Source of the DNA: Deltaproteobacteria bacterium
GTDB lineage: Bacteria; Desulfobacterota; Syntrophia; Syntrophales; UBA2185
Assembly (NCBI GenBank): GCA_026388545.1
Contig: JAPLJS010000112.1
Coordinates: forward strand, 1-35,906
Length of the DNA: 35,906 nt
Direction of reading: 5' to 3'
In this document: in pieces, positions 1-19,189 of the stretch
Layout of the letters: every line of letters starts with the position of its first letter
Numbering within the stretch: position 1 is the first letter of the stretch
Notes under the pieces: generated by a model
Databases searched by the model: none
Told to the model about the DNA's origin: nothing
The model's input: the letters and a program-made list of their open reading frames with translations, nothing else
Translations under genes and position numbers: made by a program

Positions 1-1
1 G

Positions 2-1333
2 GCGCGACATAAGGCAGCTAAAGCGCGTGAACAAATGTACTTCCTTCTGTTTCTCGGAGCCATCGTGGCTATTCTTTACATGTTCCTCATCGGCCGATGG
101 ATTCTCCGTCCGATCAAAAGCCTGACGCAGTCTGTCGATGAGATCAAGCAGGGAAATCTTGATCTTATGGTAAAGAGCGATACCCGCGACGAGATAGGAC
201 ACCTTTCAGAGGCATTCAACGAAATGACGGCAAGCCTCAGGGAAATCCGACGCAGTGAAGAGCTGAAGCTGGTCCGTATGCAGCACTCCACACAGGAAAC
301 ATTTAATAATCTCCCTGATGTAGCGGCAATCGTCGACCTGGAAGGCAGGGTGGATGTGTCAACGGAAACGGCCAGAAACATTTTCGGGCTCAACCGTCAT
401 GTCCAGATCCAGATTCTCCCCTACAAATGGATGGCCGATCTCTTCAGAGAAGCCCTCAAAGGCGATCAAACGTTGATGAACCAGGATAATGTCTCCCTGA
501 TACAGCAGTTTATCAATGGAGAAGAACACTACTTCCGGCCCACGGCCGCACCCATCCTGAACAACCGCAGGGAAGTAACCGGTGTGATCCTTATTTTGAA
601 GGACGTGACGGAGCAACTGGAGCACGACGAGCTGAAAAGGGGCGTCATCTCAACCGTCTCCCATCAGTTGAAGACGCCGCTTACGTCCATTCGTATGGTT
701 CTCCACCTCCTTCTCGAGGAAAAATTGGGACCCCTTACCCCAAAACAGGCGGAGCTCCTGATTGCCGCCCGGGAAGACAGCGACCGCCTGCACAGGATCC
801 TCGAGAACCTGCTGGACATGAGCCGCATCGTATCCGGAAAGGTGGCCATGGAATTACGCACCGCCCAATCTCACCAGATGGCGCTCGAAATAGTCGAATC
901 CTACCGGGCAGCTGCCCGTCAACGCGGGGTGGAACTGAAGACGGAGCTGCCGGGTGATCTGCCTGATGTATGGGCAGATACGGTACAGATCGGTCATGTG
1001 TTCGCCAATCTGCTGTTCAATGCCCTGAAGTACACCGATTCGGGCGGCACAATTACCGTGTCCGCGCAGATTGATGAAGAGCAGGTTCGCTTCTCCGTCT
1101 CGGATACCGGGAAGGGGATACCGGAGCAGTATCTTCCGCGGGTCTTCGATCGATTCTTTCGCATCCCCGGGCAGGAAGAGGAATCAGGCATAGGACTGGG
1201 GCTTTCTATCGTCAAGAATATTGTCGAGGCCCATGGGGGAGCGGTAAGCGTGGAAAGCCGCATAGATGAGGGAAGCACGTTTACTTTCACGGTTCCGAGG
1301 GCCGATAAAATTGCAAAGGATACCATTACATGA
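2..1333 (+). CDS. Sensor histidine kinase (HAMP-PAS-HisKA-HATPase), 5' end outside window
   Basis: The frame is open to the first base of the window, so the gene starts upstream; the ATG at 35 has no ribosome binding site and lies at the start of a membrane helix. What remains is one transmembrane segment, a HAMP linker (RPIKSLTQSVDEI), a PAS-like domain, a HisKA domain with the phospho-acceptor in VSHQLKTPL (His codon at 662-664), and a HATPase domain with N box (FANLLFNALKY), DTGKGIP and GIGLGLSIV. The missing N-terminus should hold the first helix and a periplasmic sensor. The stop overlaps the start of the next small ORF (ATGA), which ties it to the kdp operon. It is probably the kinase that serves Kdp regulation here, because the kdpD-like gene downstream has no kinase domain; that pairing is inference. 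Family call is secure, ligand unknown. Confidence 0.93.
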   Translation, partial: ARHKAAKAREQMYFLLFLGAIVAILYMFLIGRWILRPIKSLTQSVDEIKQGNLDLMVKSDTRDEIGHLSEAFNEMTASLREIRRSEELKLVRMQHSTQETFNNLPDVAAIVDLEGRVDVSTETARNIFGLNRHVQIQILPYKWMADLFREALKGDQTLMNQDNVSLIQQFINGEEHYFRPTAAPILNNRREVTGVILILKDVTEQLEHDELKRGVISTVSHQLKTPLTSIRMVLHLLLEEKLGPLTPKQAELLIAAREDSDRLHRILENLLDMSRIVSGKVAMELRTAQSHQMALEIVESYRAAARQRGVELKTELPGDLPDVWADTVQIGHVFANLLFNALKYTDSGGTITVSAQIDEEQVRFSVSDTGKGIPEQYLPRVFDRFFRIPGQEEESGIGLGLSIVKNIVEAHGGAVSVESRIDEGSTFTFTVPRADKIAKDTIT

Positions 1334-1416: not shown

Positions 1417-1500
1417 ATGACGGAACTAATCGTTCTTATGATCGGGGTATTCCTGATCATCTATCTCTTTTTTGTGGTCCTGCGTCCCGAAAAGTTTTAA
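1417..1500 (+). CDS. kdpF: KdpF, small subunit of the K+-transporting ATPase
   Basis: A 27-residue single-helix peptide, starting MTELIVLMIGVFLIIY and ending LRPEKF. This matches the known KdpF pattern: about 29 residues, one hydrophobic helix, and a C-terminal R/H-P-E-x-F motif. KdpF sits at the lipid-facing side of KdpA and stabilises the KdpFABC complex in the inner membrane. It is followed after 65 bases by kdpA and preceded closely by another small membrane peptide. It is short enough that automated annotation often misses it. Confidence 0.88.
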   Translation: MTELIVLMIGVFLIIYLFFVVLRPEKF

Positions 1501-1565: not shown

Positions 1566-3368
1566 ATGAATATATACGGCTGGCTCCAATTAACCGTTTT
1601 CATCGTCATCCTTCTCTTACTGACGAAGCCAGTGGGAGTATATCTCACGCAGGTTTTGGACCCTGAGGGAAAGACCTTTCTCGACCCGGTGCTTTGCCCT
1701 GTGGAAAGGCTGTTTTATCGGCTCTTCGGACTTGACCCGAAAAAGGAGCAGGCCTGGCAGGAGTATGCCCTGTCCCTTCTTGCCTTCAGTCTGGTGAGTC
1801 TTTTATTGACTTACATTATCCTCCGCGTTCAGCACCTCCTGCCTTTGAACCCCCAGGGGTTCGGACCGGTAAGCGAGCACTTAGCCTTCAATACAGCGGC
1901 AAGTTTCACAACCAATACCAACTGGCAGAGCTACGGGGGAGAAGCCACCCTCTCTTATTTTTCGCAGATGGTCGGCCTTGTTTTTCATAACTTTACCTCT
2001 GCAGCCGTCGGAATTGCCGCGGCTGCCGTTCTCGTAAGAGGTATTTCCAGATACACTACCCGTAAGATAGGCAATTTCTGGGTTGATCTTGTCCGCGTGA
2101 ATCTTTATCTGCTATTGCCGATTTCCCTTGTCTATGCCCTTTTTCTCGTTTCCCAGGGAATGATCCAGAATTTCAAGCCTTACGATACAGCGCAACTTGT
2201 GGAAACTGCCGTCATTCAGGTTCCCAAGAAGGATGCCGCCGGTCAGGGAATGATGGATACTCAGGGAAAACCGGTTATGGGGGAGCAGAAAGTTGAAACA
2301 CAAACAATAGCGCAGGGTCCCGCAGCATCCCAGGTGGCGATCAAAATGCTGGGGACGAACGGCGGGGGATTCTTCAATGCCAACGCTTCTCATCCATTTG
2401 AGAACCCTACACCCCTTTCCAACTTCGTGCAAATCCTCTCCATCTTCCTCATACCAAGCGGCCTGACGTATTATCTGGGCCGGATGGTAAAGAACCAGCG
2501 GCATGGCTGGACTGTGTGGGGGGTGATGCTTGTTCTCTTCCTCGCAGGAGTCCTGACGTGCTGGTGGTCAGAGGCGGCGGGAAACCCGAGGATGCATGCC
2601 CTGGGTATCGATAGCAACGGCGGGAACATGGAGGGGAAAGAGGTCCGCTTCGGGATATTCGCATCCGCTCTCTTCGCCGCTGTGACGACGGACGCCTCCT
2701 GCGGCGCCGTCAACGCCATGCACGACTCCTTTACACCCCTCGGCGGTTTGATCCCTCTCTTCAATATACAACTGTGCGAGGTCATCTTCGGCGGTGTAGG
2801 AGCGGGCCTGTACGGGATGTTGGTTTTCGTATTGCTCACGGTGTTTTTGGCAGGGCTGATGGTCGGGCGCACGCCCGAGTACCTGGGTAAAAAGATCGAT
2901 GCCTATGATGTAAAGGTCACTGCGTTATTCGTTATGGTACCGGTATTCAGCATTCTAGGATTCACCGCCTGGGCAGCGGTGAGCGCCTGGGGTATAGCCG
3001 GTCTTAATAATACCGGTCCTCACGGTTTCAGCGAGATACTCTATGTCTTCTCATCGGCTGTCGGCAATAACGGGAGCGCCTTCGCCGGGCTCACAACCAA
3101 TACCTACTGGTACGACACGACGATGGGCATCGCCATGCTTCTTGGCCGTTTTTTCATGATCGTCCCAGTGCTGGCACTTGCAGGCAGCCTGGCGCAAAAG
3201 AAGCAGATTGCCACAAGCGGGGGCAGTTTCCCCGTTTCCGGGGTAATGTTCGCTTTTCTTCTGCTCGGCACCGTTCTCATCGTTGGCGCCCTGACGTTTC
3301 TCCCGGTACTGGCGCTTGGTCCCATTGTCGAACATCTTCTGATGACCGGATCACAGATTCTTTATTAA
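1566..3368 (+). CDS. kdpA: KdpA, K+-translocating subunit of the Kdp ATPase
   Basis: A 600-residue polytopic membrane protein of the Trk/Ktr/HKT-related KdpA family that forms the selectivity filter and binds K+ from the periplasm. The four filter segments are visible: TNTNWQSYGGE, MLGTNGGGFFNANASHPFEN, TDASCGAVNAMHDSF and GNNGSAFAGL. I chose the ATG at 1566 (MNIYGWLQLTVF) because family members begin there. An in-frame ATG at 1542 has a better placed GGAGG (about 1528-1532) and would add eight residues, so the exact start is open. There is a hydrophilic insert after FKPYDTAQLVETA (near residue 210) compared with the shorter E. coli protein; I believe such longer forms are common outside Enterobacteria. 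KdpB follows after 12 bases with an RBS overlapping the kdpA stop. Confidence 0.97.
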   Translation: MNIYGWLQLTVFIVILLLLTKPVGVYLTQVLDPEGKTFLDPVLCPVERLFYRLFGLDPKKEQAWQEYALSLLAFSLVSLLLTYIILRVQHLLPLNPQGFGPVSEHLAFNTAASFTTNTNWQSYGGEATLSYFSQMVGLVFHNFTSAAVGIAAAAVLVRGISRYTTRKIGNFWVDLVRVNLYLLLPISLVYALFLVSQGMIQNFKPYDTAQLVETAVIQVPKKDAAGQGMMDTQGKPVMGEQKVETQTIAQGPAASQVAIKMLGTNGGGFFNANASHPFENPTPLSNFVQILSIFLIPSGLTYYLGRMVKNQRHGWTVWGVMLVLFLAGVLTCWWSEAAGNPRMHALGIDSNGGNMEGKEVRFGIFASALFAAVTTDASCGAVNAMHDSFTPLGGLIPLFNIQLCEVIFGGVGAGLYGMLVFVLLTVFLAGLMVGRTPEYLGKKIDAYDVKVTALFVMVPVFSILGFTAWAAVSAWGIAGLNNTGPHGFSEILYVFSSAVGNNGSAFAGLTTNTYWYDTTMGIAMLLGRFFMIVPVLALAGSLAQKKQIATSGGSFPVSGVMFAFLLLGTVLIVGALTFLPVLALGPIVEHLLMTGSQILY

Positions 3369-3380
3369 GGAGCTATGGTA

Positions 3381-5402
3381 ATGGTTGCCAAGACGCATTC
3401 TCTCTTTGATCGGGAAATTATATCGCAGTCACTGATCGAGGCTGCAAAGAAAATGAACCCCATACACATGGTCAAAAATCCCGTCATGTTCGTTACCGAG
3501 GTGGGGGCGCTCATTGTAACCGCCGGACTTTTTTTCCGACCGGAGGATGAAAATATAGGATTCAGCGTGCAGATCGCCCTGTGGCTCTGGTTTACTGTAT
3601 ACTTCGCTAATTTCGCGGAGGCTATGGCGGAGGGCCGCGGGAGGGCGCAGGCAAACGCGCTCCGGAAGACGCGGACAGGGACAACAGCCAACCGGATCAG
3701 TACCGATGGTTCTGTGGAAAAGGTTCCCGCGGAGCAGTTGCGGAAGGGTGACCTGTTCCTCGTTTCCTCGGCTGAGGTAATCCCTGCCGACGGCGAGATC
3801 ATCGAGGGGGTCGCCACGGTCGATGAATCCGCCATCACTGGAGAGTCGGCTCCTGTGATCCGTGAAGCAGGCGGGGATCGGAGCTCTGTCACGGGAGGTA
3901 CAAGGGTGCTTTCGGACTGGATCAAGGTCCGCGTGACGGCAAACCCCGGTGAGAGTTTTCTGGACCGGATGATCAGCCTCGTGGAAGGCGCCAGGCGCCA
4001 GAAGACCCCGAACGAGATCGCCCTCACGATTCTTCTTGCGGCCCTGACCATCATCTTCCTTGTAGTTGTCATAACACTGAAGTTCTACGGGCTCTATGCG
4101 GAGATATCCTTTTCCGTCACCGTCCTGGTAGCGCTTCTGGTCTGCCTGATCCCGACCACCATCGGCGGCCTTTTGAGCGCCATCGGCATCGCGGGGATCG
4201 ACCGCATGGTGCAGAGAAATGTTCTGGCCATGAGCGGCCGGGCCGTTGAGGCGGCAGGCGATGTGGATGTGCTCCTCCTCGATAAAACGGGCACCATCAC
4301 ACTGGGAGACCGCCAGGCCACGGAATTTTTGCCCGCCCCGGGCATTACCGTGGAGGAACTGGCCGACGCGGCGCAATTAGCTTCGCTTGCCGACGAGACG
4401 CCCGAGGGGAGAAGCATTGTCGTCTTGGCAAAAAAATTCGGTCTGAGAGGCCGTTCGATTTCGGATATGCCGCAAGCCAAATTCATTAATTTCACGGCGC
4501 ATACGCGGATGAGCGGCGTCGATTTAGACGGCCGTCGTATCCGGAAGGGGGCGACCGATGTCATACAGTCATTTGTCGGCGGGCATTTCCCCGTGGAGGT
4601 CCACAATACTATCGTCCTGATTTCCCAGTCGGGCGGAACGCCGCTCGTCGTTGCAAGCGATGCGCAGGTTCTGGGCGTTATCCATCTGAAGGACATCGTA
4701 AAAGGAGGGCTCAGGGACCGGTTTGAACGGTTCCGGGCAATGGGGATCAAGACCGTGATGATCACCGGTGACAACAAGCTCACCGCTGCCTCCATCGCCC
4801 GGGAGGCGGGGGTGGACGACTTCATCGCCGAAGCCCGGCCTGAAGACAAGCTGGTATTGATCCGGAAGGAGCAGGCAAAGGGACACCTTGTGGCCATGAC
4901 CGGCGACGGTACGAATGACGCGCCCGCGCTGGCACAGGCCGATGTGGGTGTGGCCATGAATACGGGCACGCAGGCGGCCAAGGAAGCGGGAAATATGGTG
5001 GACCTTGATTCCAACCCGACAAAGCTCATAGAAATTGTGGAGATCGGGAAACAGATGCTTATTACGCGGGGAGCGCTGACGACCTTCAGCATCGCCAATG
5101 ACGTGGCGAAATATTTCGCCATTATACCGGCCCTGCTCGTCGGTTTGTTCCCGGTCATCGAGCCTCTCAATATCATGAGACTTGCGTCACCGGCGAGCGC
5201 AATTCTGAGCGCCGTCATCTTTAACGCTCTGATCATCATTACCCTCATTCCGCTCGCTCTCCGGGGCGTGAAATTCCGGCCGGTCGGCGCCGCGGTCCTC
5301 CTGAAGCGCAATATCCTGATATACGGACTGGGCGGCCTTGTGGCGCCTTTTCCCGGGATAAAAATAATAGATATCATTGTAAACGCCTTGCATCTCACGT
5401 GA
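3381..5402 (+). CDS. kdpB: KdpB, P-type ATPase subunit of the Kdp K+ pump
   Basis: A P-type (P1A) ATPase that hydrolyses ATP to drive K+ uptake through KdpA. The ATG at 3381 ([10 protein letters not shown]) lies 8 bases after AAGGAG at 3367-3372; the in-frame ATG at 3375 is too close to that site. With this start the actuator motif TGES is at residues 153-156, the phosphorylated Asp is D301 in [10 protein letters not shown], and the hinge motif reads [20 protein letters not shown]. The serine of TGES corresponds to the inhibitory phosphorylation site known in E. coli KdpB (Ser162). Length, 673 residues, is normal. The stop overlaps a possible GTG start of kdpC (GTGA), typical of translational coupling. 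Confidence 0.97.
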
Positions 5403-5419
5403 AAGGGGAACTCTCGACC

Positions 5420-6001
5420 ATGAAAAATCTGCTGACAGAACTTCGGATCTCCCTCATCGCGACGTTATCCATGGCGGTACTTTTATGCGGTTTTTACCCG
5501 GCGCTGGTCTGGGTAATGGCGCAGGGAATTTTCCACGACGAGGCCAACGGTTCTCTTATCATCAGAAATGGCAAAATTGTGGGATCGAGCCTCCTTGCGC
5601 AGGGATTTACCGCTGCAAGATACTTTCATCCCCGTCCCTCAGCGGCGGGTTCCGGATACGATGCCTCCAATTCCGGAGGCAGCAACTTCGGCCCCCTTTC
5701 CAGAAAGCTGATGGACGGCATCGGACAGCGTGTCTCTGAATATCACACCAGGAACGGGCTATCACCCGACACCAGGGTGCCGGTGGACGCGGTAACGGCA
5801 TCGGGAAGCGGCCTTGATCCGCATATAAGTATGGGAAACGCCCTGCTGCAGGCGCCCCGTATCGCACGAGCACGAGGGTTGAGAGAAGAAACTGTACAAA
5901 AGAATATCGCGGCGCACATGGAAGGGCGTACGCTGGGAATCTTCGGTGAACCGCGGGTAAATGTGCTCCTTTTGAACCTGGATATGGATGAGGGGAAGTA
6001 A
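5420..6001 (+). CDS. kdpC: KdpC, catalytic chaperone subunit of the Kdp ATPase
   Basis: A 193-residue protein with one N-terminal membrane helix (LIATLSMAVLLCGFYPALVW) and a periplasmic domain. Family motifs visible are AARYFHPRPSAAG, YDASNSGGSNFGPLS, VPVDAVTASGSGLDPHIS and ALLQAPRIARARGL. KdpC stabilises the KdpFABC complex and assists ATP-driven transport. I prefer the ATG at 5420, 10 bases after AGGGGA at 5404-5409; the upstream in-frame GTG at 5399 overlaps the kdpB stop and would add seven residues. The kdpD-like gene follows after 3 bases, so all of these are one operon. Confidence 0.95.
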   Translation: MKNLLTELRISLIATLSMAVLLCGFYPALVWVMAQGIFHDEANGSLIIRNGKIVGSSLLAQGFTAARYFHPRPSAAGSGYDASNSGGSNFGPLSRKLMDGIGQRVSEYHTRNGLSPDTRVPVDAVTASGSGLDPHISMGNALLQAPRIARARGLREETVQKNIAAHMEGRTLGIFGEPRVNVLLLNLDMDEGK

Positions 6002-6004
6002 GAT

Positions 6005-7678
6005 ATGCCTGATGAAAATCGCGCAGATGCTTTCCTACGAATGATTCGCCGCTCCCGGCGCGGCCACCTGAAGGTATACCTCGGGTATGCCGCCGGCGTG
6101 GGGAAAACCTACCGTATGCTCCAGGAAGCGCACCAGCTTAGGGACGAAGGAATCGACGTGGTCGTGGGACTCGTGGAGACCCACGACCGGGCCGATGTCG
6201 CTAAACTCCTGGAGGGGCTCGAAATTATCCCCCGGCGCAAGCAGGAATACCGCAGTATTATTGTGGAAGAGATGGATGTCGACGCCATACTGACCCGCAG
6301 GCCCCAGATCGCCCTTGTCGATGAGCTGGCGCACACAAACGTGCCGGGCAGCAAGAACACGAAGAGGTACCAGGATGTCCAGGATATCCTGGCCCAGGGG
6401 ATTCACGTCATCACTACCCTGAATATACAGCATCTCGAGAGCCTCTATAATGTTGTCGAAAGGGCCTCAGGGGTAAGGGTCCATGAACGCCTCCCCGATG
6501 CAGTTCTTGCCGAAGCGGACCAGATCGTAAACGTCGATTTGACTACGGAGGACCTCAATGAGCGCTTGAGAGAAGGGAAAATATATCCCCTGGACCGCAT
6601 CGAAACAGCCCTCACAAACTTTTTCAGAAAATCAAATCTGGAGCAGCTCCGGGAGCTTACCCTGCGCGAACTGGCTTCACAGATCGACCTGCGATACCGT
6701 GATGACCTGGAGGAAGAGATTGCGTCAACGCCCGATCAGGTAATGGTGTGTCTCAGCTCTAAGGGCCCCAACAGTGAAAAACTCCTCCGTTACGCGTCAA
6801 GGCTTGCGGGCAGGCTGAACAGAAACTGGTACGCCATCTATGTCCAGACCCCGTCGGAGGCGCCCACGGCCATCGATGCGCAGACACAGCGGATTCTTTC
6901 GGGAACGCTCACGCTGGCCAAGCAGTTAGGCGCCATCGTCTTCACCTTTAAAGGAGAAGACATCGTGAAAACTATCTTGCAGTTTGCCAGGGAATACCGG
7001 GTCGGTCATATTGTCATCGGCAGCCCGGGTAAAATCCCTTTCTGGAAAAGATTGCGCGGCGAACGCAGCGTTGCCGAAAGTCTGATCCGCAACGCACGGG
7101 GTGGTACCGTCACCGTCCTGGACACACTGGAATCCAAGGCAGCCGCTCCCCTCCCGGTGGATGCGAAGATCATCCAGGAGGAGATTGTCCCTTCATCGCC
7201 TCCCCCGGAAACCGGCCGTCCAGGCTTAAGTCAATTCCTATCACCGCAAAGCATCGTGATCTGGGATACCCCTGTTACAAAAGATGATGTGCTCCAGAGG
7301 CTCACGGAGGCGGCATGGTGTGAAAGCACGATAGAACAGCGATTACAGGGACTCACTCTCGTCAGGGAAAGAGAAGAACAAGGCTCAACCTTCTTCAACG
7401 AAGGGGTTGCCTTTCCCCATGCCAGAATCGAAGGACTTAAAAGCTCATGTGTCGCCATTGGAATCCCGCGCCGCGGCGTGTCTGATGTGACGACCGAGAA
7501 ACCCATCGAGTGCGTATTCTTGATTTTCTCACCCGCGGATATTCCCGATGAACAGATTCAGATACTGGGCCTTGCCAGCAAGGTCGCCCTGGACAGACAG
7601 CTCATGGAAAATCTGTTGTCAGCATCAACCCCTGATAAAGCCTACGCAGCCATCCGGAACTGGGAAAACCGCCGGTAA
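6005..7678 (+). CDS. Kinase-less KdpD (sensor + USP domains) fused to a PTS EIIA-type domain
   Basis: A 557-residue soluble protein of unusual build. Residues about 20-230 are the KdpD N-terminal sensor domain, with a Walker A-like GYAAGVGKT (27-35), VDELAHTNVPGS and the family signature TLNIQHLESL. Residues about 240-380 are a universal-stress-protein-like domain (VMVCLSSKGPNSEKLL; VIGSPGKIPFWKRL). From about 405 to the end is a PTS EIIA type-2 (PtsN/FruA-like) domain with the motif EGVAFPHAR and the phosphorylatable His at residue 472. The four membrane helices, GAF and histidine kinase domains of classical KdpD are absent. In E. coli, EIIA-Ntr binds KdpD and alters its kinase activity; here a comparable domain is covalently attached. 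It probably acts on the separate histidine kinase at the start of the operon, which is inference. Confidence 0.92.
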   Translation: MPDENRADAFLRMIRRSRRGHLKVYLGYAAGVGKTYRMLQEAHQLRDEGIDVVVGLVETHDRADVAKLLEGLEIIPRRKQEYRSIIVEEMDVDAILTRRPQIALVDELAHTNVPGSKNTKRYQDVQDILAQGIHVITTLNIQHLESLYNVVERASGVRVHERLPDAVLAEADQIVNVDLTTEDLNERLREGKIYPLDRIETALTNFFRKSNLEQLRELTLRELASQIDLRYRDDLEEEIASTPDQVMVCLSSKGPNSEKLLRYASRLAGRLNRNWYAIYVQTPSEAPTAIDAQTQRILSGTLTLAKQLGAIVFTFKGEDIVKTILQFAREYRVGHIVIGSPGKIPFWKRLRGERSVAESLIRNARGGTVTVLDTLESKAAAPLPVDAKIIQEEIVPSSPPPETGRPGLSQFLSPQSIVIWDTPVTKDDVLQRLTEAAWCESTIEQRLQGLTLVREREEQGSTFFNEGVAFPHARIEGLKSSCVAIGIPRRGVSDVTTEKPIECVFLIFSPADIPDEQIQILGLASKVALDRQLMENLLSASTPDKAYAAIRNWENRR

Positions 7679-11070: not shown

Positions 11071-12171
11071 ATGAATATTGAAGTATTGAAATATCGTCAG
11101 AAGGATAAAGATATATTTATTTTTTCGGCTGAACCGAACTATATCAAAAAATTAGTTAAGATCAGTGATATTTCTGCCGGTGATGATAATTTCCAGCGCC
11201 CATTTGATCCTAAGAGAATTATCGAAATTAGGAACTATGTGTCAGGGAAAGATAAGCTTTATAAGAAGGGGAAAGAGATTTATGCAAAAGGGTATATACC
11301 TAATGCAATCGTTCTGAATTTGAGTTCTCGGTACAAACTGACAGAAAGTGACAAAAAGTTCTATTTAAATTTTCCTGATACAGAAAGTGTAAGTAAATTT
11401 AAAGAATCAATTGAGATAATTGACGGACAGCATAGGCTGTTGGCATTCAATGAGGAATGTGTACATGATTTAGAAAAACAACCATATTTGATGTGTTTCG
11501 TAGCCTTTATAAATTTGTCGAGTGATGAAAAGAAAGAGATATTTATGGTTTTGAATGAACGTCAGAAAACCGTAGATAAGAACATCTTATTACGACACAA
11601 AAAATTGCTGAATTTACTTTTGGATGAAGAGGAAACTAGATATGAAGTAATTGCGAAACTTAATGATGAAAATGATTCACCATTTTATAATAGAGTAATC
11701 ATGGCTGGGGAAAAGAAAAAGAATGCATTTAAGGCTAGTTCAATAGACGAAATACTAAGTTCGTCAAAAGCACTTGACAAATTAATTGATTCGAAAAATC
11801 AGATCAGTGTAAAACATTACAAAGTATTTAAGAACTATTTAAATGCGTGGCAACAAAATTTCAAAGGTGCTTGGGCTGATAGTAAAAATACTTTATCAAA
11901 GGTTTCAGGCGTCAGATTTATGTTTTATTTATTTCCATCGTTTTATGAAGTGCTTAAAATGAGGGATGGTGGCAAAGACTTTCAGGTATCAGCTTTTTCT
12001 GCTATAGTACAGGAACTAAAAAATAATCACTTTAATGATTCATTTGACTTGAAGAAAGCTGGCAAATTTCAGTTTTTTCAAGATAAGACCAGTATTGGTA
12101 AATTAGCAAATACGTTGGGGAAAGAGCTTGTTGAACAATATCAAGATCGAGGAGATGATATTCTAGTTTGA
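11071..12171 (+). CDS. DGQHR-domain protein (DndB-like superfamily)
   Basis: A 366-residue protein with the DGQHR motif at residues 118-122, within IEIIDGQHRLLAF, and FMVLNERQKTVDKN downstream. These are the two hallmarks of the DGQHR/DndB-related, ParB-superfamily-like fold. Members occur in DNA phosphorothioation (DndB) and 7-deazaguanine DNA modification (DpdB) systems and as stand-alone genes in defence islands. No dndC, dndD, dndE or dpd genes are in this window. It is very AT-rich compared with kdp or nuo genes, which signals transfer. It forms a two-gene unit with the next ORF, starting 13 bases after its stop. The molecular function is unproven; DNA binding or nucleotide-dependent sensing is inferred from family. 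Confidence 0.85.
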   Translation: MNIEVLKYRQKDKDIFIFSAEPNYIKKLVKISDISAGDDNFQRPFDPKRIIEIRNYVSGKDKLYKKGKEIYAKGYIPNAIVLNLSSRYKLTESDKKFYLNFPDTESVSKFKESIEIIDGQHRLLAFNEECVHDLEKQPYLMCFVAFINLSSDEKKEIFMVLNERQKTVDKNILLRHKKLLNLLLDEEETRYEVIAKLNDENDSPFYNRVIMAGEKKKNAFKASSIDEILSSSKALDKLIDSKNQISVKHYKVFKNYLNAWQQNFKGAWADSKNTLSKVSGVRFMFYLFPSFYEVLKMRDGGKDFQVSAFSAIVQELKNNHFNDSFDLKKAGKFQFFQDKTSIGKLANTLGKELVEQYQDRGDDILV

Positions 12172-13086: not shown

Positions 13087-13441
13087 TGGTGGAGGCGGCG
13101 GGAATCGAACCCGCGTCCGAAAATATTCCACTGTAGCTTCTACATACATAGCCTCTGTTTTAATTTCACTCTCGAAATCTCCCGGAGGCAGGATTCATCA
13201 AGAGCTATCCCTACTGGATTTTCGCCCTTCTCGCTTCGGGAAAGTGAGATCAGCTATCCTGCCTTTATGACGCCCTGTGCTGATTCGGCAGGCGGAATCA
13301 GAAGGACGTAGCCGTCTATGCGGCTAAAGCGTAATCGTAATTGCTTGCGCTTATATGTTTCCTACCTGTTTAACGAGGCCTGGTAGGAACCTCGGTATGC
13401 CACCACAGCTTCCACATCCCCGTCGAAACCTTTACGCCCCC
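13087..13441 (-). ncRNA. ssrA: tmRNA (ssrA)
   Basis: The reverse strand begins GGGGGCGTAAAGGTTTCGAC and ends with the T-arm (GGTTCGATTCCCGCC) and encoded ACCA. The acceptor stem GGGGGCG pairs with CGCCTCC, with one G-U. The tag reading frame at 13319-13348 encodes ASNYDYALAA followed by TAG, the normal degradation tag type. tmRNA rescues stalled ribosomes and marks the nascent protein for proteolysis, together with SmpB, encoded just upstream. The 3' end faces the accessory island, and ssrA 3' ends are common phage and island integration sites. A very similar gene layout (smpB-ssrA) is known from many bacteria. Confidence 0.96.
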
Positions 13442-15019: not shown

Positions 15020-16378
<1,359 letters not shown>

Positions 16379-16480: not shown

Positions 16481-19189
16481 CTACTTGTTCGTCAGTGCCG
16501 CATGAGCGGCTGCCAATCTCGCAATAGGCACACGGAACGGCGAACAGGAAACGTAGTCCATTCCGACACGATGACAGAGGTCAATGGACCTGGGATCGCC
16601 GCCGTGTTCACCACAGATACCTACCTTGAGTTTTGGCCTTGTAGAGCGGCCTTTCCTGGTACCCATTTCGACTAATTGACCGACTCCCGTTTCATCCAGA
16701 CTCTGGAAAGGATCTTCGGGAAGTATTTTCTTTTCAAGATAAATGGGAAGGAAACCGCCGATGTCATCACGTGAAAAACCAAAGGTGGTTTGCGTAAGGT
16801 CGTTCGTACCAAAGGAGAAGAATTCGGCGGTTTTCGCGATCTCATCCGCTGTCAGCGCCGCCCTCGGCACTTCGATCATGGTTCCGACTAGGTATTTGAA
16901 CTTCACACCCTTCTCTTTCATCACCTCGTCAGCCATGCGGCGAATAATAGCTTCCTGATGATTATATTCAGTGGCAGAACCTACCAAGGGAACCATTACC
17001 TCCGGATACACTTTAACGCCTTTCTTTGTTAATGCAGCGGCAGCCTCAAAAATGGCACGAGCCTGCATTTCGGTGATTTCCGGATAGGCGATGCCCAGAC
17101 GGCATCCGCGGTGACCGAGCATCGGATTGAGTTCATGCAAGGAATCAATGCGTGCTTTCAGTTGCTTAACGGTAATGCCGAGCTGCTTTGCCAAGTCTTC
17201 AGCCTGCTGATCATCAAGTGTCACAAATTCATGCAATGGGGGATCGAGGAGACGAATGGTTACAGGGAGACCTTTCATAGCTTCGAGTATGCCCATAAAA
17301 TCCTGTCGCTGGAACGGCAATATTTTCATGACTGCCTTGCGGCGGGCCTCTTCATTCTCGGCAACGATCATCTCACGCATGGGCATGATGCGCTCCGGAC
17401 CGAAGAACATGTGCTCCGTTCGGGTGAGACCGATACCTTCAGCGCCAAAGGCTCGTGCCTGAGCGGCGTCTTGGGGACGATCAGCATTGGTGCGAACACC
17501 GAGCTTGCGGAACTTATCAGCCCATTTCATGAGCTGCATGTATTCTTTATTGGTTTTCAGATCAGGCGTGATCGATGGGATTTTCCCCTCGTAGACCCTC
17601 CCTGTTGAACCATTGAGAGAAATCCAGTCTCCTTCTTTTATTGTTCTGTTATTCACGTTCATCAGCTTCTTGCCCATATCGATTTCCAGTGCGGAGCAGC
17701 CAACGATACAGCATTTTCCCCATCCACGGGCCACTAGTGCCGCATGGCTCGTCATACCGCCCTTTGCAGTCAGTATCGCCTCAGCGATATGCATCCCATG
17801 CACATCTTCAGGAGAAGTCTCGTTACGTACAAGAATTATTTTTTTACCTTCTTTTACCCATTTTTCAGCATCCTCTGCAGTGAATACGACCTGGCCGGTT
17901 CCCCCACCGGGACCCGCCGGCAAACCCTTTGCGAGGACACGGGCTTTTCTTTCCTCTGCCGGATCGAGCATATCATGGAGTAACTCATCCAACTGCGACG
18001 GCCTCACCCGCAGTACAGCCGTCTTCTCATTGATAAGCCCTTCTTTCACCATTTCCACGGCTACTTTTATCGCCGCAGCGCCGTTGCGTTTTCCCGTGCG
18101 GGTCTGCAGCATCCACAGGCGTCCTTCCTGGATGGTGAATTCAATATCCTGCATATCTTTATAGTGCTTCTCCAGCCTGTTTCGAATCCCTACAATCTCC
18201 TTATACAATTTCGGCATAGCTTCTTCGAGGCTTTCGAGGTGTTTGGTATCTTCTGTCTTATTTTTAATATTGAGGGGGTTCGGCGTCCGGGTACCCGCTA
18301 CGACGTCTTCTCCCTGTGCATTAACCAGCCATTCACCGTAAAAATTGCTGTCGCCCGTCGCGGGATTTCTTGTGAAGGCAACACCGGTCGCACTGTGATC
18401 ACCCATATTCCCGAAGACCATGGATTGAACGCTCACCGCTGTGCCCCATTCATCCGGAATGCCCTCAATCCGGCGATAAGAAATGGCGCGTTTCCCGTTC
18501 CAGCTCTGGAAAACTGCGCCTATCCCACCCCAAAGCTGTTCGTAGGGATCATCGGGAAATTCTTTCCCCAGGGCTTGCTTTACTTTTGCTTTGAATATTC
18601 TTGTAAGCTCTTTCAGGTCGGCTCCGGTAAGATCCGTATCCTGAACAATGCCGCGTTTTTCTTTCATTGTGTCCATGGCATGCTCAAGTTGCATGCGGAC
18701 GCCTTTGCCCTCCTTTGGTTCGATGCCGGCTGCTTTTTCCATAACAACATCCGAATACATCATTATCAAACGACGGTAGGCGTCATACGCGAAACGATCA
18801 TTACCTGTTTTAGCAATCAAACCTTTAATAGTCTTTTCGTTAAGACCGACATTCAAAACCGTTTCCATCATGCCAGGCATGGAAGAGCGCGCGCCGGACC
18901 GAATGGAAAGCAGAAGGGGATTTTCCGGATCGCCGAATTTAGCCTTCATAATAGTTTCAACGTTTGCGAGAGCTTTCTTGACATCATTTTTAAACTGAGG
19001 CGGATACGATTTTTTGTGTTTATAGTAATAATTGCAAACTTCGGTTGTAATAGTAAAACCTGGAGGTACGGGAATACCAAGCTTGGCCATTTCCGCCAAA
19101 TTCGCCCCCTTGCCGCCCAGCAATTCTTTCATGTCAGCCTTACCGTCAGCCTTACCGCCGCCAAACCCATAAACATACTTTCCAGACAT
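16481..19189 (-). CDS. ppdK: Pyruvate, phosphate dikinase
   Basis: A 902-residue PPDK interconverting pyruvate, ATP and phosphate with PEP, AMP and pyrophosphate. Domains in order: N-terminal ATP-grasp (YGFGGGKADGKAD; LLGGKGANLAEMAKLG; IRSGARSSMPGMMETVLN), central phosphohistidine domain with catalytic His in GGMTSHAALVARGWGK, and C-terminal PEP-binding TIM barrel (EGIGLTRTEHMFF; VGICGEHGGDP). AAGGAGGG lies just upstream of the ATG. In anaerobes it allows reversible PEP-pyruvate exchange at low energy cost, consistent with eno nearby. Monocistronic by context: the atpE upstream has its own terminator. Confidence 0.98.
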   Translation of the reverse strand: MSGKYVYGFGGGKADGKADMKELLGGKGANLAEMAKLGIPVPPGFTITTEVCNYYYKHKKSYPPQFKNDVKKALANVETIMKAKFGDPENPLLLSIRSGARSSMPGMMETVLNVGLNEKTIKGLIAKTGNDRFAYDAYRRLIMMYSDVVMEKAAGIEPKEGKGVRMQLEHAMDTMKEKRGIVQDTDLTGADLKELTRIFKAKVKQALGKEFPDDPYEQLWGGIGAVFQSWNGKRAISYRRIEGIPDEWGTAVSVQSMVFGNMGDHSATGVAFTRNPATGDSNFYGEWLVNAQGEDVVAGTRTPNPLNIKNKTEDTKHLESLEEAMPKLYKEIVGIRNRLEKHYKDMQDIEFTIQEGRLWMLQTRTGKRNGAAAIKVAVEMVKEGLINEKTAVLRVRPSQLDELLHDMLDPAEERKARVLAKGLPAGPGGGTGQVVFTAEDAEKWVKEGKKIILVRNETSPEDVHGMHIAEAILTAKGGMTSHAALVARGWGKCCIVGCSALEIDMGKKLMNVNNRTIKEGDWISLNGSTGRVYEGKIPSITPDLKTNKEYMQLMKWADKFRKLGVRTNADRPQDAAQARAFGAEGIGLTRTEHMFFGPERIMPMREMIVAENEEARRKAVMKILPFQRQDFMGILEAMKGLPVTIRLLDPPLHEFVTLDDQQAEDLAKQLGITVKQLKARIDSLHELNPMLGHRGCRLGIAYPEITEMQARAIFEAAAALTKKGVKVYPEVMVPLVGSATEYNHQEAIIRRMADEVMKEKGVKFKYLVGTMIEVPRAALTADEIAKTAEFFSFGTNDLTQTTFGFSRDDIGGFLPIYLEKKILPEDPFQSLDETGVGQLVEMGTRKGRSTRPKLKVGICGEHGGDPRSIDLCHRVGMDYVSCSPFRVPIARLAAAHAALTNK

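Follow-up and report, generated by a model that had tools for sequence, protein, structure and literature searches.

The N-terminal domain of KdpD has been recognised by Silberberg and co-workers as an atypical serine kinase, which phosphorylates Ser162 of KdpB and shuts the potassium pump, the domain alone being sufficient (PMC11018627). In the same study, a KdpD/Usp protein of Deinococcus geothermalis without a histidine kinase phosphorylates KdpB under the control of cyclic di-AMP (c-di-AMP), and the short chain encoded behind the pump genes of D. radiodurans and Anabaena, where a separate kinase is also present, is read as a serine kinase. The paper left the regulation of this newly found kinase open. 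The c-di-AMP motif of the KdpD Usp domain has been given as (A/G/C)XSXSX2N(Y/F) (PMC8214093). Potassium control has also been linked to the phosphotransferase system (PTS) through PtsN, whose contact site is the transmitter (HisKA) in the KdpD of E. coli and the GAF domain in that of S. fredii; which form of PtsN is active reportedly depends on the species, and the link has been through years of conflicting models (review PMC13104625). Here we describe a gene in which both modules meet on one chain. It lies on contig JAPLJS010000112.1 of a Deltaproteobacteria bacterium of the order Syntrophales (GCA_026388545.1), within a stretch of 35,906 nucleotides analysed as a whole and hereafter called the window. 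We read its product, with a probability of roughly 0.5, as a short KdpD/Usp serine kinase that would inactivate the pump and that carries an EIIA-Ntr-like PTS input in cis. The gene and its parts are as follows.

6005..7678, plus strand: KdpD-Usp-EIIA fusion gene, an open frame of 557 amino acids.
6056..6685, plus strand: KdpD domain (PF02702), residues 18-227, with Walker A GYAAGVGKT at 27-35, Walker B D106/E107, and R187; predicted atypical serine kinase.
6740..7099, plus strand: Usp domain, residues 246-365, from Pfam match, c-di-AMP motif comparison and structure match.
7133..7213, plus strand: linker, residues 377-403, poorly conserved and of low confidence (predicted local distance difference test, pLDDT, <50).
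7235..7660, plus strand: PTS EIIA-2 domain, residues 411-552, with predicted phospho-acceptor His472 and Arg456, from Pfam, alignment and structure match.

A sequence-only reading had proposed such a fusion, without membrane or kinase domains, and the architecture is borne out: within a single frame, all three Pfam models match above their cut-offs (KdpD, 310 bits against a gathering score of 26.1; Usp, PF00582, 27.7 against 24; PTS_EIIA_2, PF00359, 59.8 against 27). The chain is also soluble as proposed, with no transmembrane segment and hydrophobicity below the transmembrane threshold throughout. The description of it as lacking a kinase holds for a histidine kinase, as the Pfam scan finds neither HisKA nor HATPase in it, but is misleading for the protein as a whole because the KdpD domain retains the residues of the serine-kinase site. 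The fusion fails the models for three described protein types: full-length KdpD sensor histidine kinases (NF007793; 358 bits against a cut-off of 1123, spanning 10-363 of 895 model positions), KdpD-like non-kinase potassium sensors (NF038185; 357 against 550, spanning 6-342 of 373) and the PtsN equivalog (TIGR01419; 37 against 138.7); its resemblance to EIIANtr is by structure only.

In an AlphaFold model built from 35 aligned sequences (mean pLDDT 70.0, against 58.7 with 15 sequences), which is usable for single domains and not for their arrangement, the KdpD core, Usp and EIIA are each confident and are connected through a linker of low confidence, residues 377-403. The KdpD part matches the N-terminal domain of P. 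syringae KdpD (2r8r) with a VIA Z of 23.2, the Usp part matches the c-di-AMP-bound Usp domain of S. aureus KdpD (7ji4) at 16.4, and the EIIA part matches four EIIANtr structures at 17.8-19.8 (1a6j, 19.8); the last region thus has the EIIA fold and not another. In E. coli EIIANtr, the counterpart of His472 (within GVAFPHAR) is H73 and that of R456 is R57, which we take to be the phospho-acceptor histidine and its arginine partner. The histidine is intact here, as first proposed, and is invariant in all 35 aligned fusions.

The fusion recurs in relatives, where the sequence-only reading had suggested looking for it, and beyond them. Three partly overlapping surveys found it intact in 15 genomes of the order Syntrophales (source genome counted), in 20 of the 394 other genomes of a phylum-wide draw of 395, and as 34 intact open reading frames (ORFs) in a scan of the contigs of 84,980 species with the EIIA part as query. 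The last set takes in Aminicenantes, Hydrogenedentes, an Acidobacterium and Desulfomonile, and the named relatives include metagenome-assembled genomes (MAGs) of Syntrophaceae and Smithellaceae; since most carriers are MAGs, single taxon labels need care. An accident of assembly or frame was ruled out, because intact frames recur across many independent assemblies and span several phyla, including the 15 genomes of the order and the 34 ORFs in named genome contigs. A viral or mobile origin was likewise rejected after a search of viral contigs returned no relatives. As a separate observation, on one contig (L058:7933-10019, shared with L093) an orphan C-terminal piece of the fusion (251 residues, EIIA) is immediately preceded by an ORF for a group II intron reverse transcriptase/maturase, as if the intron had entered the gene.

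In a tree of the KdpD-Usp part, the full-length KdpDs are all set apart (100/99), and a single clade (100/100), which remoter short forms adjoin, unites 41 fusions with seven unfused short forms; two unfused rows (L152 and L153) are not firmly placed. The simplest reading is that EIIA was gained once on a short KdpD/Usp chain and then lost in one or two sub-lineages. In those sub-lineages the module is dispensable, which would suit the idea that EIIA is a passive passenger, or a mere phosphate sink without regulatory effect, on a plain KdpD/Usp serine kinase. We consider this very improbable: H472, R456, G460 and P471 are invariant in all 35 fusions from several phyla, which a passenger would be unlikely to preserve, within an EIIA domain that overall shows just 43-46% identity to most relatives.

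On the kinase side, K34, T35, D106, E107 and R187 are equally invariant across the 35 fusions, and every E. coli KdpD serine-kinase catalytic residue that was checked is kept save the adenine-site tryptophan. The TGES target is present in 52 of 53 KdpB ORFs longer than 400 residues from fusion loci, and in the window its serine is Ser158. From these residues, and from the position of the fusion gene 3 bp behind kdpC, we infer that the KdpD domain acts as a serine kinase on KdpB. DUF4118, the membrane potassium-sensor domain of KdpD, was not found in a family search of the source genome, and the input must therefore come from elsewhere. Diadenylate cyclases are encoded in the source genome, and in 19 of 20 genomes examined. 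The PTS phosphodonors whose presence the sequence-only reading had made a test of its idea are there as well: HPr and EI on one contig (C22) and a GAF-type EI-Ntr on another (C15). A third contig has an rpoN-hpf-ptsN-hprK-rapZ cluster, which encodes a stand-alone PtsN and HPr kinase.

We propose, then, that the KdpD domain would phosphorylate KdpB at Ser158 and inactivate the KdpFABC pump when potassium is ample, and that the C-terminal EIIA-Ntr-like domain is an acquired second, built-in input. EI or EI-Ntr would relay phosphate from phosphoenolpyruvate (PEP) via HPr to His472, which is predicted to be phosphorylated through the PTS, and its phosphorylation state would bias the serine kinase in one direction or the other, either alone or together with nucleotide bound to Usp. 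Because of that bias, shut-off of the pump would be coupled to PEP and nutrient state. Transcription of the operon would fall to a separate pair, the linked HAMP/PAS histidine kinase and an NtrC-type sigma-54 activator. Both the effect of EIIA on the kinase and this sigma-54 circuit are inferred. In its most general form the proposal is of a PTS-gated serine kinase, in which the state of a fused EIIA directly switches the post-translational inactivation of an ion-pumping P-type ATPase and one soluble chain integrates PEP and nutrient state with a nucleotide messenger; to this we give somewhat less than even odds.

Several observations weigh against a serine kinase with nucleotide and PTS inputs. 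The position of the adenine-coordinating Trp39 is tyrosine in 29 of the 35 fusions, tryptophan in four and cysteine in two. The c-di-AMP motif is present at only four of five positions (C249, S251, N256 and Y279), the second serine being replaced by K, R, H, Q, G or N. The arrangement of the domains is not confident in the AlphaFold model (predicted template modelling score 0.35), so that the structure gives no ground for proposing an allosteric path. Finally, a histidine kinase and an NtrC activator are co-conserved with the protein, also beside unfused members of its clade, and it may serve a two-component system as well or instead. This last point turns on the genes upstream.

1..1333, plus strand: histidine kinase, HAMP-PAS-HisKA-HATPase, its 5' end truncated by the contig start; the length of homologues is about 605-653 residues.
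1417..1500, plus strand: kdpF-like hydrophobic peptide of 27 residues (MTELIVLMIGVFLIIYLFFVVLRPEKF) between the kinase and kdpA, assigned by position and sequence only.
1566..3368, plus strand: kdpA, 600 residues counted from the ATG at 1566; the TTG at 1377, listed as its start, is too early.
3375..5402, plus strand: kdpB, with Ser158 of TGES aligning to Ser162 of E. coli, which the KdpD serine kinase phosphorylates.
5399..6001, plus strand: kdpC, ending 3 bp ahead of the fusion gene.

The usual order in relatives is NtrC-type sigma-54 activator, HAMP/PAS histidine kinase, kdpA, kdpB, kdpC and fusion, the kinase gene sitting between kdpC and the fusion at some loci. Where there is room to see it, kdpB is close to the fusion (30 of 34 loci); with enough sequence, a homologous histidine kinase stands beside it at 14 of 15 loci, and 10 of 12 have the activator there. 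The one kinase homologue checked (L043) has two transmembrane segments. Five loci (L045, L048, L089, L103 and L167) combine the same kinase, the fusion or both with a divergent KdpABC, about 38-44% identical to that of the window in KdpA and 57-60% in KdpB, which suggests that the regulatory set moves as a unit.

The sequence-only reading had the PTS state acting through a separate histidine kinase, and such a kinase does exist in the operon. On that account the chief role of the fusion would be that of a cytoplasmic input subunit for the adjacent two-component system, binding the HAMP/PAS kinase and tuning sigma-54-dependent kdp transcription by PTS state. The linkage just described speaks for it, as does the regulation of KdpD histidine kinases by PtsN in several proteobacteria, and so do unfused members of the clade that lie between a histidine kinase and an NtrC activator with no kdpABC in view (L156, L158 and L159; the stretches at L156 and L159 run to 10-12 kb). 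The analogy to E. coli EIIA-Ntr and KdpD on which it was built does not carry over: the domains that PtsN contacts, HisKA in E. coli and GAF in S. fredii, are parts of KdpD kinases and are both missing from the fusion chain, and the partner here is of a different, HAMP/PAS type. In D. radiodurans and Anabaena, moreover, it is the short chain encoded after the pump genes that is taken for the serine kinase, despite a separate kinase. The fused EIIA may act through the neighbouring histidine kinase, and it is at least as likely to act on the pump by way of the serine-kinase domain; as the protein's main role, service to the two-component system seems to us unlikely, though it is the nearest competitor. 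Less probable again is that the protein does both, as KdpB serine kinase and putative partner of the separate histidine kinase, two chains thereby rebuilding a split, PTS-coupled full-length KdpD; the conservation of serine-kinase residues alongside linkage to kinase, activator and pump is consistent with it.

To judge by a scan for -24/-12 promoters, it is probably sigma-54 rather than KdpE that drives these kdp operons. The 455 kb scanned hold 13 sites matching at 11 or 12 of 12 positions, where simple base shuffles give 0-6, and eight of the 13 lie from 123 bp inside to 251 bp ahead of a called kinase or kdpA start; one of them, TGGCACACCGGTTGCT, stands 44 bp ahead of the kinase start at L043. 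The contig start truncates the kinase in the window and so leaves activator and promoter out of view: the first 8 kb hold no site scoring at least 9, the head of the operon lying beyond the contig end. No riboswitch was found ahead of kdp at Rfam gathering scores, the sole match in the window being a tmRNA gene (transfer-messenger RNA; 13087-13441, minus strand). Shortly before it, 11071-12171 encodes a DndB-like protein (DNA phosphorothioation-associated; PF14072, 43.9 bits), and farther on an enolase gene (15026-16378) adjoins a convergent pyruvate phosphate dikinase-like gene (16481-19189), both PEP-related.

No paper on a KdpD-Usp-EIIA fusion was found in the open-licence literature searched, and the main text of a KdpD survey of 5495 species does not contain the word EIIA. 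The individual parts are known, as are EIIA-2 domains on ion transporters. As a natural, soluble and conserved union of both modules, it makes the link between PtsN and KdpD testable in vitro with a few purified proteins and no membrane kinase, and, if the proposal is true, potassium uptake would be tied directly to the energy and nutrient state of the cell.

Among the closest described proteins is the short KdpD/Usp chain of D. geothermalis (PMC11018627), which like the fusion lacks transmembrane, GAF and histidine-kinase domains, keeps the catalytic residues, is encoded behind the pump genes and shares its genome with a diadenylate cyclase. The fusion differs in carrying a C-terminal EIIA and K, R or H at the second serine of the c-di-AMP motif, and its own serine-kinase activity is a predicted one. 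E. coli KdpD differs in its DUF4118 transmembrane, GAF, HisKA and HATPase domains and an OmpR-type KdpE; the fusion has none of these, and its operon pairs a HAMP/PAS kinase with an NtrC-type activator. EIIA-Ntr itself shares the fold and has equivalents of H73 and R57 in the fusion, whereas here the domain is fused, only about 21-24% identical, and has Gln517 at the position of the second histidine of E. coli EIIANtr. In the regulation of KdpD by PtsN in E. coli, P. putida, R. leguminosarum and S. fredii, an EIIA module also meets KdpD in potassium control, but there it is a separate protein, and what it touches is a domain of a complete KdpD, HisKA for E. coli and GAF for S. fredii; here it is covalently joined to a chain without either. 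Our scans also turned up EIIA-2 at the N-terminus of a 1065-residue cation P-type ATPase whose gene immediately precedes kdpA and kdpB on a Nitrospirae contig (L119:6851-14303), and on Na+/H+ exchangers, a CNNM-CBS transporter or CBS pairs in several phyla (L104, L106, L116, L132, L137, L142 and L135). Such fusions to Na+/H+ exchangers, CNNM-CBS proteins and P-type ATPases likewise place a regulatory part on ion-transport machinery; there it sits on the transporter, and here on the regulator.
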